From: an uncultured Pseudomonadota bacterium
GTDB lineage: Bacteria; Pseudomonadota; Gammaproteobacteria; Xanthomonadales; Wenzhouxiangellaceae
DNA: 58,874 bases
Assembly (NCBI GenBank): GCA_937138395.1
Contig: CAKZPB010000060.1
Location: forward strand, 1 to 58,874
Direction: 5' to 3'
The notes beneath the pieces are model-generated. The model ran no database searches and was not told the origin of the DNA. It worked only from the letters and a program-made list of their open reading frames with translations. A program made the position numbers and the translations under genes. Below, piece after piece: positions 31,119-52,653 of this stretch. How positions within the stretch are numbered: position 1 is the stretch's first letter; every line of letters starts with the position of its first letter.

Positions 31119-31194
31119 TGGTGGGCCGTGAAGGACTCGAACCTTCAACCAACGGATTAAAAGCCCGGTGCTCTACCACTTGAGCTAACGGCCC
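31119..31194 (-). tRNA. tRNA-Lys (anticodon UUU)
   Basis: A full 76-base cloverleaf with encoded CCA. Acceptor stem GGGCCGT/ACGGCCC pairs perfectly, D stem GCTC/GAGC, anticodon loop CTTTTAA, T stem GAAGG/CCTTC with loop TTCGAGT, discriminator A. The top pair of the anticodon stem (27-43) is a C-U mismatch and the bottom pair is G-U. Position 46 in the variable loop is G, the target of TrmB. Confidence 0.95.
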
Positions 31195-46435: not shown

Positions 46436-47818
46436 TTATTCAGGCAGCAGTGTAACCCGGATACTGGTGCCACCCAGGCGCGCGGGTTGCGTTGTGATGG
46501 AGCCTTGATAACTGCGGGCGATACGCTCGACGATGGCCAGCCCGAGGCCCTGGCCTTCAGCACGTTGATCACCCCGGATGCCGCGCTGCAGCAAATACTC
46601 GAATTCGACCTGGGTAAGGCCGGGACCATCGTCATCGACATCGATCTGAAGTCCGGTGCGTCGGCCACCTGAAACGGCGGGCTGCAGCTGAATCCGCGTT
46701 ATATTTGCGCCATACTTGGCTGAATTTTCCAGCAGATTGCCGAGCACCTCGATCAGGTCGCGCTCCAGGATGTTCGCACTTAATTCGGTTGTACAGTCAA
46801 GCTCGAAACGGTGTTCGGGATAGAGTTTCTGGAGTGAAGTGATGACCCGCAGCGTGACGGGGCCAACGTCGATTGACGCAAGCATTGTGCGACGCCCGGA
46901 TCGAGCAGCACGATCCAGTTCGTGGCGGATATGATGTTGCATCTGTACAACCGTATCGCGTAACGATTCCGCATCGTGCGCAGGCAGGTCGTCCAACTGC
47001 GCCTGAATCACGGCCAGTGGTGTCTTCAGGGCATGTGCCAGATCCGCCAGCGCGCGCTGATACTGCTCGGTATTTGCGCGCTCTGTTTCCATCAGGGCAT
47101 TCAGATTGTCCGTCAATGGCTTCAACTCACGAGGATAACGGCCCTGAAGCCGCTGCTGCTTGCCGGACTCCATGTTTTGGACTTCGGTGGCAACCTTGCG
47201 GAATGCCTGCAGCGGCACCAGCAGCAAGACGAGCTGGGCCGACAGAATGACAATGCCTGCGATCAGGAGCCAGCGGCCAAGATTGGCGCGAAACGCGTTG
47301 CCGGTCTCGCTTGAACGGGCCTCATCTTCGGCAACCCATAAGGTCAGATCGATAATCTCACCGCCCTGCGTTTCCCAGCCCAGGCCCATCTGATAACGAT
47401 AGAACGGCAGCGCAGAACTCGGCTGAATTCGTCTCGAATCACCGCGCTCCATCATCGAAAGAGTCTCGAGCGGATCAATCGACGCGTTGATGGTTGATGC
47501 TGAAAACCAGCGATCAGCTTGAGTGATGCCGCCAGCGTACAAGCCAGACCCGGGCTGCATCAGTCGAGAATCCAGCGGCGTTGCGGCCCATTGAAGTTGA
47601 CCGTTTTGATCCACCTCGATGCCAGCCAACACCACAAACAAGTTCGACTCGAGCCGCTCCCACAGAGCGGCCTGCTCAGTGGAGCGAAAAGCCTGGTCGA
47701 TAACCAATCCAATCAGACCCAGTGCCAACACGACAATCAGTACCGAGGCTATTGACTGCCTGAAGATCAGCGAGGGAATCCGGCGACTCGCTCCAGATGC
47801 AGCATCTTGTTTTGGCAT
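46436..47818 (-). CDS. Sensor histidine kinase, PhoQ-like
   Basis: A 460-residue membrane kinase: two membrane helices (about 22-42 and 183-203) flank a periplasmic sensor domain, followed by a HAMP-like linker, dimerisation domain with H262 in LAHALKTPL, and an ATPase domain with LLENSAKYG (N box), DDDGPGL (G1) and EGQGLGLAIV (G2). It pairs with the response regulator 47 bases upstream. PhoQ-like by overall layout; the sensed signal (Mg2+, peptides or other) cannot be told. Confidence 0.9.
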   Translation of the reverse strand: MPKQDAASGASRRIPSLIFRQSIASVLIVVLALGLIGLVIDQAFRSTEQAALWERLESNLFVVLAGIEVDQNGQLQWAATPLDSRLMQPGSGLYAGGITQADRWFSASTINASIDPLETLSMMERGDSRRIQPSSALPFYRYQMGLGWETQGGEIIDLTLWVAEDEARSSETGNAFRANLGRWLLIAGIVILSAQLVLLLVPLQAFRKVATEVQNMESGKQQRLQGRYPRELKPLTDNLNALMETERANTEQYQRALADLAHALKTPLAVIQAQLDDLPAHDAESLRDTVVQMQHHIRHELDRAARSGRRTMLASIDVGPVTLRVITSLQKLYPEHRFELDCTTELSANILERDLIEVLGNLLENSAKYGANITRIQLQPAVSGGRRTGLQIDVDDDGPGLTQVEFEYLLQRGIRGDQRAEGQGLGLAIVERIARSYQGSITTQPARLGGTSIRVTLLPE

Positions 47819-47865
47819 TGCTCAGATCCAGCAAGTCAGAGCGAGGAGCTCAATGGCAACGGGCA

Positions 47866-48561
47866 TCATTCAGAATCATGTGCTTTTTCGACATCGGGGC
47901 TGAATCGATAGCCACGCCCACGGAGCGTTTGAATGGGCTTCCAGTCGCCCTCAGGATCCAGTTTCTTTCGTAAACGGCCAAGTATGACTTCGATCACGTT
48001 GCTGTCCGGATCCGCATCATCCTCATAGAGATGCTCATTCAGTTCCAACTTGGACAGTACCTGGTCAGGATGCAGCACAAAATAGGCCAGCAATTTATAT
48101 TCGAATCCGGTGAGCTCCATCGGCTCGTCATTGAGCGTGGCTTTTTGCGCCGTCAGATTGACCTTCAGTGGACCAAACTCGATTTGAGAGGTTGCATGCC
48201 CACCTGCCCTGCGCAGCAATGCCTGCACGCGGGCCAATAACTCCTCGGTTTGAAAAGGCTTGGTCAAATAGTCATCGGCACCAAGCTCAAGCGCTTCAAC
48301 CTTGTCCTGCCAGTGATCGCGGGCGGTCAGGATCAGCACCGGATATTTCTTACCGGCCTTGCGCAATTTCTTGACCACGTCGAGGCCGGACTGCCCAGGA
48401 AGGCCAAGGTCCACGATCGCAAGATCAATCGGATACTCAGTCGCGAAATACACGCCTTCAATACCATCGCCACAGGCATCAACAACAAAGCCTGCCTTGA
48501 TCAGTCGATCGGTCAGTGCTTCGCGGAGTGTGGTTTCGTCTTCGATCAGCAGCAGTCTCAT
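47866..48561 (-). CDS. Response regulator, OmpR/PhoP family
   Basis: A 231-residue regulator with receiver acidic pocket E7-D8, phospho-acceptor D51 in AIVDLGLPG, conserved K101-containing LTKPF, and a winged-helix DNA-binding domain ending with LRGRGYRF. It resembles PhoP. The ATG overlaps the stop of the PepSY gene by four bases, so PepSY protein, regulator and kinase form one operon, suggesting that the PepSY protein is part of the signalling circuit or its input. Confidence 0.93.
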   Translation of the reverse strand: MRLLLIEDETTLREALTDRLIKAGFVVDACGDGIEGVYFATEYPIDLAIVDLGLPGQSGLDVVKKLRKAGKKYPVLILTARDHWQDKVEALELGADDYLTKPFQTEELLARVQALLRRAGGHATSQIEFGPLKVNLTAQKATLNDEPMELTGFEYKLLAYFVLHPDQVLSKLELNEHLYEDDADPDSNVIEVILGRLRKKLDPEGDWKPIQTLRGRGYRFSPDVEKAHDSE

Positions 48562-48965
48562 CTGGTAGTACCAGTCTGTTGCGGAGGGGGCAGTGGAGTC
48601 TGGTGACTGAATCCAGTGAACTGGAATGCAGCATCATCTAATAGATGTGTGTTTTGCATGGAAAGCCCGACGTCGTATAAATCAGACTGTACACGCCAGT
48701 TCATCGTGTCAGCAGGCACCCGAATCGTGCGAACCACCCCTTCACGAGTCAATATCCGAATGACATAGATGCGCTGACCGTTTCGGTCAGACACCTCACG
48801 CGCAGAAATAACCTTTGCATCATGCTGGCGGGCGACGCGTTCTGCAACTTCGCGAAGCGTGTCGGCATACGCAACTCCCTGGCGATCCATCAACGGTGGC
48901 GCAACAAGCACTACCAATCCGAACAACACACAGCGCGCAAGTTTAATGCAAGGCTTTAATTCCAT
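48558..48965 (-). CDS. PepSY-like secreted small protein
   Basis: A 135-residue protein with a signal peptide (1-34, cleavage near AYA) and a PepSY-like beta fold: EVAERVARQHDAKVISAREV, GQRIYVIRILTREGVVRTIRVPADT (key residues G-x2-Y-x-I-x-I-L). PepSY domains are often found with two-component systems or M4 proteases, where they are thought to inhibit proteases or sense. Starting an operon with a PhoP/PhoQ-like pair fits a periplasmic accessory role. The C-terminal 20 residues are rich in P, Q and T. Confidence 0.75.
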   Translation of the reverse strand: MELKPCIKLARCVLFGLVVLVAPPLMDRQGVAYADTLREVAERVARQHDAKVISAREVSDRNGQRIYVIRILTREGVVRTIRVPADTMNWRVQSDLYDVGLSMQNTHLLDDAAFQFTGFSHQTPLPPPQQTGTTR

Positions 48966-49207: not shown

Positions 49208-49234
49208 AAAAAAGCCGCCCTGGGGGCGGCTTTT
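49208..49234 (-). terminator. Terminator of the cohesin-dockerin operon
   Basis: A perfect 11-bp stem AAAAGCCGCCC/GGGCGGCTTTT (49210-49220 with 49224-49234, loop TGG) is followed by six T on the minus strand. It lies 22 bases after the stop of the IPTL-CTERM gene and closes the three-gene operon. Between it and the PepSY gene (48966-49207) nothing is supported. Confidence 0.9.
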
Positions 49235-49256: not shown

Positions 49257-51284
49257 TCAGGCTTGGCTAGCAAACCAGCGGCGGCCAAACAGGCCGGCGA
49301 CCAGCAGCAGCATCAAGCTCATGATGATCAGACCCCACTGATTCATGGTCGGAACAACCAGTGGTTGGCCCTGGCATGCAATCGTGTAAGTAGCATCCGG
49401 GAGACCGCGTGGCACCGGCTGCAGCACATCTTCGACAAAGCACTCGAAGGTGGCCTGGAAGCTCTGTGGCGTAGGCGGTGTACACTGGAACTCTGCTGTT
49501 GCAGAGGCCCCGGGACCAATCACGGTACTAAACGGTGAGTCCAGTGATGTGATTGCACCGTCGACATCACCCGTGAAATTACAGGTCACCTCAATGCTGT
49601 CAGTATCACCATTGTTGAAGAATTCAATATCACCAATGGGTGTTGGGGTATTCGGTGGAACGATACCCAGGTTCAGCGTGCCTCCCGGCAGCGGATCCGA
49701 GGTGAAATCGCCATCCGGTTCACCAATACATTCCAGATCATATTCAACCGGGCTGGCAGGATTCGCATCACCGTTGTGTGTAACCGAGAGCGTTGCAGTA
49801 ATCAAACCACCGGTACCAGCATCCGGAGTACAAGTCACTTCGACTGCATCAGCCAGCGTGTCACCAACCGCAATGGCGGCACCATTGAACGTTGCTGTGA
49901 ACTGAGAATCGCTGGTCGTAACGCCCGTAATGGTCAGATTGGAATCCGGAGCGGGTCCGACACCGTCATTCGTTACGTCGATACCTACAGCTGTAGTCGT
50001 AACACCATTTGGCGTTGTTCCAAGGTCAATTGTAGCCGCCGGAGCAGGTGTTGAGTCATACGATGGAACTGCGTCAGTAATTTCACATTCCACAGTGACG
50101 GTGGTATTGAAGGCCGGACCACCTCTGGGTACGAAATCAAAGCTTTCCCATGTAATTTCGATGTCTCGGCTGAAGTTGCCGTCGTTGGTGTTGTCACATT
50201 CAACAACAACATCGAAGTTCCCGTCTGGGGCGACATCATTCGCTGGCCCGCCACCAGTTATCACAGTGATTGGATTAGCTGCACCAACTGCAGTTGCAGT
50301 CACTTGGAAAGCGGTGCTAGTGAAACCATCCTGGGGATTAGTAACAGAAATTGTACCGGTTGGCGCTGTTGGATCAACTGTCAGACCAGTAATGGTCGCA
50401 GGTGTGGAGGCCGCTACATTTGGCGTTAAACCATCACAAACAAAGGTATATTCTGCGACTGGGCTTAGGTTGTCAGAATTATTTGTTACGGACAAAGTGC
50501 CGCTGTTTTCGCCTCGTTGATCTGGCGTGCAATTAAACGATACGTTTTGAGTCGTAACCCCTTCATCGCCAGGGATATTTACAGGCAACATTGGGCTTGG
50601 CGAACCAATCGTTGCTGCACCTACATTTGCAGTTCCACCCAATGCAGTAATGTCAAAAGCAGTATCGCTACTCAGGTTTTGAATTGCGATTTGTTGAACT
50701 GCTGTAGCAGATCCGACTACTTCCTGTCCGAAATCAACCTCTTCGCCCGGTGCCGGATTTGTTGAACTATAGAAGCTTTCACCGGGTGGTACTTCAGTTG
50801 TTACTGAACCACCATCAAGGGTCACTGATCCAACCGTTGCACCCGCATCCGTTGTAGCAGACAAGAGTGTCAATTCAACCGGGATTATGGTTCCAGGTGG
50901 GACGGTACCATTGATATCAAATGTAATTGAGCCTAATGGTGCTGTAGTAGGAAGAACTGTTCCGCTAAGCTGGTCCGTTACTGTAAGTGCAATATTCCCA
51001 GGTGAAGGATTATTACAACCAGTAAAAGCACCTGTGTGTGATGGTGGGGTGTTGGCTGTACAACCGTTCACATTAGGGTTTGCAGCCATGTCTGTTTGTG
51101 GAGTTAACCGAGTGCTGTCATAGGTGATTTGTACACTAAATGAAGCTAAATTAGCACCTGCAGTGTAATTAATCTCGACAACTGCTGTACCGCCAGCAGC
51201 ACCTGTGACTTCGGTTAGCTCTACAGTTTGTGCTTGAATCGATGCACCCGCTGAGAGTAGCAATATCGCTATAAAACGTTTCAT
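49257..51284 (-). CDS. Cohesin-like domain surface protein with Ig-like repeats and IPTL-CTERM anchor
   Basis: A 675-residue exported protein. Signal peptide 1-18 (SIQA); residues about 20-165 look like a cohesin domain: ELTEVTGAAGGTAVVEI, LASFSVQITYDSTRL, and a later LGSITFDINGTVPPGT. Its loop C75-x14-C90 holds C-x4-P-x2-H-x-G-x-F-T-x-C. Then come about four beta-sandwich repeats of the choice-of-anchor D type with FNCTPD/VTCTPDAG/FQCTPP motifs. The C-terminus is an IPTL-CTERM signal: PTMNQWG, a membrane helix and GRRWF. That signal is known to be read by exosortase H-type enzymes, which attach proteins at the surface. GGAG before the ATG supports the start. The gene is visibly more A/T-rich in its 5' half than its neighbours. 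Confidence 0.8.
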   Translation of the reverse strand: MKRFIAILLLSAGASIQAQTVELTEVTGAAGGTAVVEINYTAGANLASFSVQITYDSTRLTPQTDMAANPNVNGCTANTPPSHTGAFTGCNNPSPGNIALTVTDQLSGTVLPTTAPLGSITFDINGTVPPGTIIPVELTLLSATTDAGATVGSVTLDGGSVTTEVPPGESFYSSTNPAPGEEVDFGQEVVGSATAVQQIAIQNLSSDTAFDITALGGTANVGAATIGSPSPMLPVNIPGDEGVTTQNVSFNCTPDQRGENSGTLSVTNNSDNLSPVAEYTFVCDGLTPNVAASTPATITGLTVDPTAPTGTISVTNPQDGFTSTAFQVTATAVGAANPITVITGGGPANDVAPDGNFDVVVECDNTNDGNFSRDIEITWESFDFVPRGGPAFNTTVTVECEITDAVPSYDSTPAPAATIDLGTTPNGVTTTAVGIDVTNDGVGPAPDSNLTITGVTTSDSQFTATFNGAAIAVGDTLADAVEVTCTPDAGTGGLITATLSVTHNGDANPASPVEYDLECIGEPDGDFTSDPLPGGTLNLGIVPPNTPTPIGDIEFFNNGDTDSIEVTCNFTGDVDGAITSLDSPFSTVIGPGASATAEFQCTPPTPQSFQATFECFVEDVLQPVPRGLPDATYTIACQGQPLVVPTMNQWGLIIMSLMLLLVAGLFGRRWFASQA

Positions 51285-51330
51285 GAGGATAGACTCCGTT
51301 GTCTTGTTTTTTATAAATTCTAATTTAGGG

Positions 51331-51795
51331 TTATTCAACGCTAAAGCTTATGCTGTTTGATGAATCCGAAAGCGTTTGGCCATTCGTATCTAATGCAACG
51401 ATTTGTGACAGGCGAAATGGAGATTCGGATGTTCTTGATGCGCCCTGAAATTCGATCCAACCAATCGGACCAGTAAGTGAGCGAGACTCTCCTATGTCAG
51501 AAACTACAACAAGAACTGTATTCTTGTCTGGGAAATGCTTGCAAGTTGTAAAAGAACCTTTATGAGTTTCCGGAATACCTGCAAGACAGTTCTCTACCGA
51601 ACTAACTTGTACGGTTTCATCATAACGAAATTCGAACTGAATCCCACTAATGTTTTGTTGATTTATTTCCAACATCGCAATTTTTCCTTCCCGATTAAAT
51701 TGATAATCGTGGTCAGCGGCAGATTCATACTGAGCTAAAGCTACGGCAGCCGAAACTGATGAAAGAAGGATTAAGAATGATTTAACAATTTTCAT
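51331..51795 (-). CDS. Small secreted cohesin-like protein
   Basis: A 154-residue protein with a signal peptide (to about ALA, residue 21) and a single beta-rich domain resembling the cohesin-like domain of the neighbouring gene: ISGIQFEFRYDETV, the loop C70-x14-C85 with the same C-x4-P-x2-H-x-G-x-F-T-x-C pattern, then TVLVVVSDIGESRSLTGPIGWIEF. It has no membrane anchor or other domain. ATG at 51795 is used; the frame also opens with a TTG two codons earlier directly after the dockerin-gene stop. The IPTL-CTERM gene follows after 46 bases. Confidence 0.68.
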   Translation of the reverse strand: MKIVKSFLILLSSVSAAVALAQYESAADHDYQFNREGKIAMLEINQQNISGIQFEFRYDETVQVSSVENCLAGIPETHKGSFTTCKHFPDKNTVLVVVSDIGESRSLTGPIGWIEFQGASRTSESPFRLSQIVALDTNGQTLSDSSNSISFSVE

Positions 51796-51801
51796 AGACA
51801 A

Positions 51802-52653
51802 TTACCCCGGAAATGCGCCGCAATCTCCTTGCAACGCCTGGATGAAGTTAAAAGTTGCTTGAAGATCAGGAAGACTAACAACACCGTCTTCGTTCACGTC
51901 TGGTGTCCCAGCTGCTGGAGTACCACCTAGCGATTGGATTTCAGCGAAAAGATCCTGCAAATCACTAATATCACGAGTACCAGAGCCATCAGCATCACCG
52001 CGACACAGACGACCTACAGCAGTACTGCGGCGAGACTCATAGGCATCAAAATTTAATATCCCAGTGGCACCGTCTATATTGCCGAGGCGGACAGAAGAAA
52101 GAGATCCACTTGCACTACCGATATTTTGAACAGTTTCACTTTGGCCATTAACTGAAAGACTAATGCTATCCCCTTCCGCCCAATCTATCTCTACGGAAGA
52201 CCAACCAGCGGCAGAACCAGTTTGTTCAACGGGGGTCCCGGGATTTGCAGAATCAACAAGTGTGATATCACCTGAGTCGTCCAAAGTAACGGTGAATCGT
52301 TCGCCACCTCCAGCCTGATCACCATAACCTGCATAAATCACAGCATCCTGGCCTGCACTTAAATCGTTCAACACATAGAAACGCGCGACAATTCTGTTGA
52401 TTCCGCCAGGGTTGTTATCCTGAACCCAGCCTTGGCTTGTAACCTGCATTCCACAGAAACCAGAATATCTTGCAATTGCAGGGTCCGAAGATGCCGGAGG
52501 AGCTTCGGGGTCACCAGCGGTCACGGCACCAGAGCTTGATGACCAGTTATCCAGTGTGCAGGCCACCGCACTCTGACCTGCCAGCATGGCACCGGCCAGC
52601 ACTGCACCTGCTGCCAGGGTGCGATTGAGGAAATTGAATTTCGCGTTTGTCAT
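51802..52653 (-). CDS. Secreted LamG-like protein with C-terminal type I dockerin
   Basis: A 283-residue exported protein: signal peptide (1-31, cleavage near AVA), a LamG/concanavalin-like beta-sandwich (about 32-210), and a C-terminal dockerin. Two Ca-binding loops are complete: D220-x-D222-x-S224-G225-x5-D231 and D252-x-N254-x-D256-G257-x5-D263, each followed by a helix. Cysteines C217 and C278 bracket the module. Dockerins bind cohesin domains, and the next two genes encode cohesin-like proteins. The stop is followed directly by the next frame, so the three genes look like one operon. Confidence 0.85.
   Translation of the reverse strand: MTNAKFNFLNRTLAAGAVLAGAMLAGQSAVACTLDNWSSSSGAVTAGDPEAPPASSDPAIARYSGFCGMQVTSQGWVQDNNPGGINRIVARFYVLNDLSAGQDAVIYAGYGDQAGGGERFTVTLDDSGDITLVDSANPGTPVEQTGSAAGWSSVEIDWAEGDSISLSVNGQSETVQNIGSASGSLSSVRLGNIDGATGILNFDAYESRRSTAVGRLCRGDADGSGTRDISDLQDLFAEIQSLGGTPAAGTPDVNEDGVVSLPDLQATFNFIQALQGDCGAFPG

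Follow-up and report, generated by a model that had tools for sequence, protein, structure and literature searches.

The systems closest to the locus described here are the type I cohesin-dockerin pairs of clostridial cellulosomes, the direct attachment of single-dockerin enzymes to the surface of Clostridium thermocellum, the non-cellulosomal cohesins and dockerins of archaea, and surface proteins with an IPTL-CTERM sorting signal. An internally symmetric sequence is reported for dockerins able to bind cohesin in either of two orientations, and a single binding mode for the non-cellulosomal dockerins of the Clostridium thermocellum attachment type (PMC5429695); one report names residues 10 and 11 of each dockerin repeat as determinants of cohesin specificity (PMC8063739). 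Genomes of anaerobic methanotrophic (ANME) archaea have been described as holding many cohesin and dockerin domains, whose function that account calls unknown (PMC5244752), and an S-layer protein of Methylomirabilis lanthanidiphila is reported to carry IPTL-CTERM (PMC8671808). We analysed a DNA stretch of 58,874 nucleotides (the window; contig CAKZPB010000060.1 of assembly GCA_937138395.1) from an uncultured gammaproteobacterium of the family Wenzhouxiangellaceae, order Xanthomonadales. Three consecutive co-directional open reading frames (ORFs) on its minus strand (P3, P2 and P1 in this order, 52653-49257) encode a protein with a ConA-like domain and a dockerin (P3), a small cohesin-fold protein (P2) and a large protein with an N-terminal cohesin and an IPTL-CTERM tail (P1). 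As in the type I pairs of clostridial cellulosomes, the P1 cohesin passes the Pfam model PF00963 and the P3 dockerin has two calcium loops, and the two-fold symmetry at positions 10 and 11 described for the clostridial dockerins (PMC8063739, PMC5429695) is found here at the family level. Judging from the sequences, it is probable that the operon encodes a one-ligand cohesin-dockerin attachment coupled to the exosortase XrtH, in which P3 is held non-covalently on anchored P1.

Residues 19-165 of P1, taken as a domain alone, exceeded the cut-off of PF00963 (27.0 vs 24.1 bits), and P1 scored 25.7 bits when the genome was searched with this model; Cohesin was not among the matches when full-length P1 was scanned against Pfam. 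A search of solved structures with the single sequence of this region gave no match, and a profile of 23 P1-type cohesin domains (profile A2) matched solved cohesins in the PDB (1g1k, 7.7e-12; 2vn5, 9.4e-12; and others). An earlier sequence-only reading of the window had placed a cohesin-like domain at residues 20-165, in agreement with these results. The IPTL-CTERM anchor proposed in the same reading was recognized by the NCBIfam model TIGR04174 (23.1 vs a cut-off of 20.5 bits), whereas the Pfam IPTL model stayed below its cut-off (16.9 vs 20.8 bits). The beta-sandwich repeats that it described are immunoglobulin (Ig)-like repeats akin to choice_anch_D and HYDIN-type domains, although all of these similarities are below cut-off. 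The xrtH gene is present in the source genome (2.84 Mb, 142 contigs) on another contig, C77 (E 6.7e-59).

The dockerin of P3 was recognized most clearly through its family. A profile of the P3-family dockerins matched solved dockerins in the PDB (best 2y3n_B, 3.8e-5), and 22 of the 34 family members matched the Pfam model Dockerin_1 (PF00404) at E <= 1 (best 2.8e-11), the P3 proteins of the genomes G003 and G024 exceeding its cut-off. The type I dockerin that had been read in P3 is thus borne out by the family profile but not by the window copy, which falls short of the Pfam cut-off. Position 8 of a dockerin calcium loop is usually hydrophobic, and the first loop of the window P3 has Arg there. 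The single-sequence search of the PDB with P3 gave five weak matches, including one dockerin (E 0.62). The AlphaFold2 (AF2) model of P3 is confident (predicted local distance difference test, pLDDT, 86.6; predicted template modelling score, pTM, 0.82); it has a beta-sandwich and, after it, two helices that coincide with the dockerin positions. The fold searches barely probed the dockerin part because the large ConA-like domain filled the list.

P3 homologs occur in 29 of the 43 genomes of the family and in 24 of the 25 near-complete ones. Exactly one P3-type dockerin was found in 22 of the 27 family genomes having any, and in the source genome. PF00963 matched in 14 of the 43 genomes, and 14 of its 16 matches adjoin P3. 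For the order, 298 genomes at least 90% complete were drawn evenly from a larger group; the P3 profile gave some match in 81 of them and a full-length match (E <= 1.3e-45) in 50, which belong to nine families. Outside the family, 28 genomes have a full-length P3 and 20 loci were read, four of which share contigs with loci from the named-genome search. A P1-like gene adjoins P3 in all 19 loci with room for one (L152 ends at the contig edge); its hydrophobic tail is complete in 18 of the 19 (L154 is cut by the contig end) and a cohesin-profile match was detected in 16, while a P2-profile match lies between P3 and P1 in 14 loci. XrtH is encoded in 50 of the 50 genomes with full-length P3 as compared with 111 of the 298 overall, and in family f2 the only genomes with XrtH, G112 and G204, are also the only ones with full-length P3. 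The cohesin profile matched in 49 of the 298 genomes, 45 of which also carry full-length P3; G012, G045, G051, G068 and G093 have full-length P3 and no cohesin match, and G073, G097, G146 and G157 have a cohesin and no full-length P3. In 370 genomes of the class, full-length P3 was found in the genome of the window only; the matches to the P3 profile beyond the order, in seven genomes, were confined to its dockerin part and lay in ORFs of 354 to 2301 amino acids. The sequence-only reading had proposed to look for the trio and for xrtH in related genomes, and both recur there, apart from P2, which genus 7 of the family lacks as a gene of its own.

The two repeats of the dockerin resemble each other within each protein. 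In 25 non-redundant dockerins of the 34 in the family, the repeats agreed at 6.44 of 13 positions, against 2.27 +/- 0.31 when repeats were dealt among proteins, and none of 20000 shuffles reached 6.44. Sixteen further dockerins, unused in this first test and taken with no redundancy filter, agreed at 8.56 positions (2.88 +/- 0.50 shuffled, 0/20000); the order-level loci L137, L139, L146 and L148 were excluded from them, being on contigs already used. Among these 16, the repeats agreed at position 10 in 16, at position 11 in 15, at position 14 in 16 and at position 17 in 15, where 2.9, 1.7, 3.6 and 1.6 agreements were expected. Position 19 never agreed in either set (0/25 and 0/16). Matched residues shared their codon in 135 of 294 cases, with 124.7 expected from the codon usage of each gene. 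Since codon usage predicts about this degree of codon difference between matched residues, the sequences indicate that the symmetry is held by selection on the protein, which maintains a two-faced dockerin at the family level. Gene conversion or recent homogenisation of the repeats as the source of the symmetry is ruled out by this codon count and by the mismatch at position 19. The idea that the two faces exist because of P2 is not supported, as symmetric repeats persist in lineages without P2, namely in genus 7 (L090, L098, L103). Almost no repeat symmetry was seen in the relatives L109, L110 and L112.

According to the mechanism that we propose, P1 would be exported, XrtH would act on its IPTL-CTERM tail, and the Ig-like repeats would display its N-terminal cohesin at the cell surface. 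P3 would also be exported, and its C-terminal calcium-binding dockerin would plug into the P1 cohesin. The ConA-like domain, which has no covalent anchor itself, would thereby stay on the cell surface or within the matrix. P2 would be a soluble single cohesin, most likely for the same dockerin, and may act as an escort, a cap or a competitor.

None of the 16 P2 proteins matched the Pfam Cohesin model, a search of solved structures with the single P2 sequence returned nothing, and the P2 profile gave two chance matches only against the PDB. Alignment of the P2 profile to the P1 cohesin profile with hhalign (probability 97.7, E 2.1e-12) included two conserved cysteines, and a search of whole genomes with the P2 profile picked up P1 cohesins (best 1.6e-9). 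The first 8 Foldseek hits of the AlphaFold model of P2 (pLDDT 75.8, pTM 0.66) were all cohesins (best E 1.9e-3), headed by the Archaeoglobus fulgidus cohesin 2xdh, which likewise has a non-cellulosomal cohesin fold. On structural re-alignment, all 50 matches listed were cohesins or cohesin-holding chains (Z 6.8-9.8), the top one among them being 6kge_A (Z 9.8, root-mean-square deviation 3.1, 116 aligned residues). The small secreted cohesin-like protein of the sequence-only reading is thus a cohesin by its modelled fold and by its profile match to P1. P2 was found at E <= 1e-30 in nine family genomes, every one from genera 1-4; in genus 7 its profile matched only long P1-type ORFs. P2, the soluble receptor of the sequence-only reading, is an accessory of the system, because genus 7 has no separate P2 gene and P3 directly precedes P1 there.

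There is a small chance that the P3 dockerin binds soluble P2 in the periplasm or the medium, with P2 as its partner or stabiliser, another ligand for the P1 cohesin, and the anchoring incidental. The gene order would suit this, as P2 is the immediate 3' neighbour of P3 (in 14 named loci, with start codons picked by eye, it begins 5-46 nucleotides past the end of P3), and a P2-profile match follows P3 in 14 of the 20 order-level loci. The genus-7 loci, which keep the repeat symmetry with P3 directly before P1 and no separate P2 gene, argue against it, as does the P1 cohesin, which unlike P2 matches solved cohesins by sequence. We also regard as unlikely a cohesin relay, in which P2 would hold the P3 dockerin during export and hand it over through its second face to the P1 cohesin. 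If true, two-faced dockerins would serve delivery across the Gram-negative envelope and not the packing freedom of multi-enzyme complexes.

Several results weigh against the attachment of P3 to P1. The window dockerin scored 14.9 bits with Dockerin_1, below the cut-off of 22.9 bits, and it is below average in symmetry, its positions 10/11 being I-S vs L-P and its repeats agreeing at positions 13, 14, 17 and 20. Across 23 trios, dockerin distances were weakly correlated with cohesin distances (Mantel r 0.19 for P1 and 0.16 for P2; 0.15 and 0.11 after removing the signal of the ConA-like domain), and P1 and P2 distances were strongly correlated with each other (r 0.78; 0.64 once that signal was removed). 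The association of P3 with XrtH gave a naive Fisher value of 5e-26, a figure with no phylogenetic correction behind it. The cohesin profile found none in the adjacent P1-like genes of L143, L144 and L151, only one of eight P1 tails scanned outside the family passed TIGR04174, and none of the Foldseek matches of P2 reached E < 1e-3. Of 20 dockerin-less relatives of P3, 19 stop immediately behind the ConA-like domain and carry no anchor, and the P3 tail of the genome G041, described below, fails recognition by TIGR04174. The low score of the window dockerin and the weak correlation of the distances would fit a P3 in which the EF-hand repeats form an intramolecular calcium-stabilised cap that does not bind, the cohesin folds serving as stalk or adhesion domains. 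We hold this to be improbable: the symmetry, for which an internal cap would have no need, covers the published recognition positions despite the randomisation of codons, and P3 and a cohesin occur together in 45 of the 50 P3 genomes and 45 of the 49 cohesin genomes.

The structural re-alignment of the P3 sandwich listed 50 matches with Z 13.6-16.3 and 7-15% identity. The closest folds among them were the glucuronan lyase 2zzj (Z 16.3) and Cip1 3zyp (15.1); a sialidase and Teredinibacter X122 domains were also listed, and family-7 alginate lyases came further down (about 14). Foldseek listed clostridial neurotoxins and sialidases as well, through their lectin-like domains; judged by the model, the neurotoxin-domain matches reflect the shared ConA-like fold and are no sign of a toxin. 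The Pfam scan gave no family match in P3. From its modelled fold, the probable ligand of the ConA-like domain is a polysaccharide or a glycoconjugate. The sequence-only reading had seen no carbohydrate-active enzyme in the operon and favoured adhesion or matrix; this argument does not hold for P3, whose ConA-like fold is nearest to polysaccharide lyases and lectins. Because the N-terminal domain of P3 has this lyase/lectin-like fold, a carbohydrate ligand stays in play. That P1 is the scaffoldin and P3 a polysaccharide-degrading subunit of a miniature or degenerate cellulosome, as 2zzj, 3zyp and the alginate lyases among the listed folds might suggest, is very improbable with one cohesin in P1, one PF00963 match and one family-profile dockerin in the source genome, no Dockerin_1 match there at E <= 0.001, and a P3 domain that has no Pfam family match and, at such low identity, also resembles non-catalytic lectin domains.

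Two cases suggest that a direct anchor can take the place of the dockerin and the anchored cohesin together. The dockerin-less P3 relative L170 of the genome G129 carries IPTL-CTERM itself (TIGR04174, 22.3 vs a cut-off of 20.5 bits), and the cohesin-profile search of that genome detected none. In G041, which has the same neighbours as its relatives, a hydrophobic tail replaces the dockerin of P3, P1 is missing, XrtH is kept, and no cohesin was detected in the genome by profile. The dockerin-less ConA-like relatives (L155-L174) mostly end in an SRRQTFIG-like tail, and XrtH is present in all 20 of their genomes. In ORFs of 565-3141 amino acids (G073:C99, G073:C3, G097:C48, G157:C153, G057:C297 and G072:C108), cohesin-profile matches and matches to the dockerin end of the P3 profile are close together. 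Since these matches share strand and open-frame length, the ORFs are probably single proteins with both modules, which, if true, would permit head-to-tail assembly.

Variations in the number of the modules were also observed. In L054 (2491-6621, genome G009) one P3 and one P2 are followed by a tandem pair of P1 paralogs, both of which have a cohesin and an anchor tail. In L145 (180-1538, G065) a second cohesin-profile protein, which has no IPTL-like tail, lies directly behind P1, and in L049 (3764-5590, G002, same genus) a second cohesin-bearing ORF of 609 amino acids lies elsewhere in the genome with no P3 alongside. Away from P3, G005 has the strongest Dockerin_1 match of the family search (G005:C382:18554-18718, 54.3 bits), and G009 has three overlapping Dockerin_1 matches in an ORF of 165 amino acids (G009:C11:242322-242666).

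The three-gene operon was found on the minus strand where the sequence-only reading had described it, and a terminator closes the unit (Table 1). Its hairpin and T-run were supported by folding (-18.6 kcal/mol, z -3.9, 0 of 200 shuffles equally stable), though the terminator is absent from the list of the consensus-motif scan; folding supports a hairpin at about 49230-49208. Of the five sub-threshold matches that an RNA-family scan gave at the operon, four fall on this hairpin. The consensus scan listed no minus-strand promoter site 5' of P3. The open frames of P2 and P1 are 51801-51331 and 51338-49257, in which the ATG codons given in Table 1 were preferred as starts; with these, the gaps are 6 nucleotides between P3 and P2 and 46 nucleotides between P2 and P1. 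The N-termini of all three proteins look by eye like signal peptides.

Table 1. Features of the cohesin-dockerin operon, in window coordinates (aa, amino acids).
Feature	Position	Strand	Description
P3	51802..52653	minus	283 aa; putative signal peptide ~1-31 (by eye), ConA-like beta-sandwich ~32-210, C-terminal dockerin ~215-280
P3 dockerin	51805..52032	minus	loop 1 DADGSGTRDISD, helix 229-240; loop 2 DVNEDGVVSLPD, helix 261-272
P2	51331..51795	minus	154 aa from ATG 51795; small cohesin-fold protein; putative signal peptide (by eye); anchor-less
P1	49257..51284	minus	675 aa from ATG 51284; N-terminal cohesin, Ig-like repeats (choice_anch_D/HYDIN-type), IPTL-CTERM tail
P1 cohesin domain	50790..51230	minus	residues 19-165; PF00963 27.0 bits; family profile vs PDB 1g1k E 7.7e-12
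P1 IPTL-CTERM sorting signal	49257..49355	minus	hydrophobic segment and basic tail; TIGR04174 23.1 bits, cut-off 20.5
Intrinsic terminator	~49208..49230	minus	G-C stem, A-T extension, T-run; from sequence and RNA folding

A gene for a DDAH-type protein lies 5' of the operon. On its 3' side (46439-48965), a small protein without a Pfam match is followed by a response regulator and a histidine kinase. Genes homologous to these two are also found behind P1 in L048, L052, L053, L054 and L055 and not in L051; because they follow P1 in these five loci, the regulator and kinase may have a link with the cohesin-dockerin system. The Rfam scan of the whole window gave nothing at gathering score except one tRNA gene (31122-31194, minus strand).

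In the open-access papers searched, cohesins or dockerins together with exosortases were found only in an archaeal review, an earlier mention of the operon being possible, and no report combining dockerin with PEP-CTERM or Wenzhouxiangella with dockerin, or naming an 'exosortase H', was found. The present results suggest that cohesin-dockerin pairs have a role beyond machines that degrade polysaccharides; here they take the form of a compact set of three genes linked to an exosortase. A two-faced dockerin is selected here where most genomes have just one, which makes the purpose of the second face directly testable, and the relatives include named, apparently cultured Wenzhouxiangella strains. 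The family may also provide new plug-and-socket pairs for engineering. The sequence-only interpretation as a whole is partly supported: the cohesins, the recurrence of the trio and the presence of xrtH agree with the checks that it set, whereas its argument from the missing carbohydrate-active enzyme and the standing of P2, here an accessory, call for change.

Compared with clostridial cellulosomes, the anchored protein has a single cohesin and no scaffoldin array, a family genome mostly has one P3-type dockerin, and the host is Gram-negative with an exosortase-type anchor; the system would work like a cohesin-dockerin attachment and is not a cellulosome. The archaeal cohesins and dockerins differ from the present genes, whose operon is fixed, includes both a defined candidate ligand and an exosortase-linked anchor, and recurs in one gammaproteobacterial order. 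P1 shares the C-terminal IPTL-CTERM of the Methylomirabilis lanthanidiphila S-layer protein and adds to it a cohesin and a neighbouring dockerin gene. In the direct surface attachment of Clostridium thermocellum enzymes, a single dockerin protein is fixed to an anchored cohesin, as is predicted here; in contrast to its single-mode dockerins, the family described here has symmetric repeats, and its anchor is of the XrtH/IPTL-CTERM type. What is new here, as far as sequences can indicate, is a one-ligand, exosortase-linked, non-cellulosomal cohesin-dockerin system in which P3 is predicted to bind P1.

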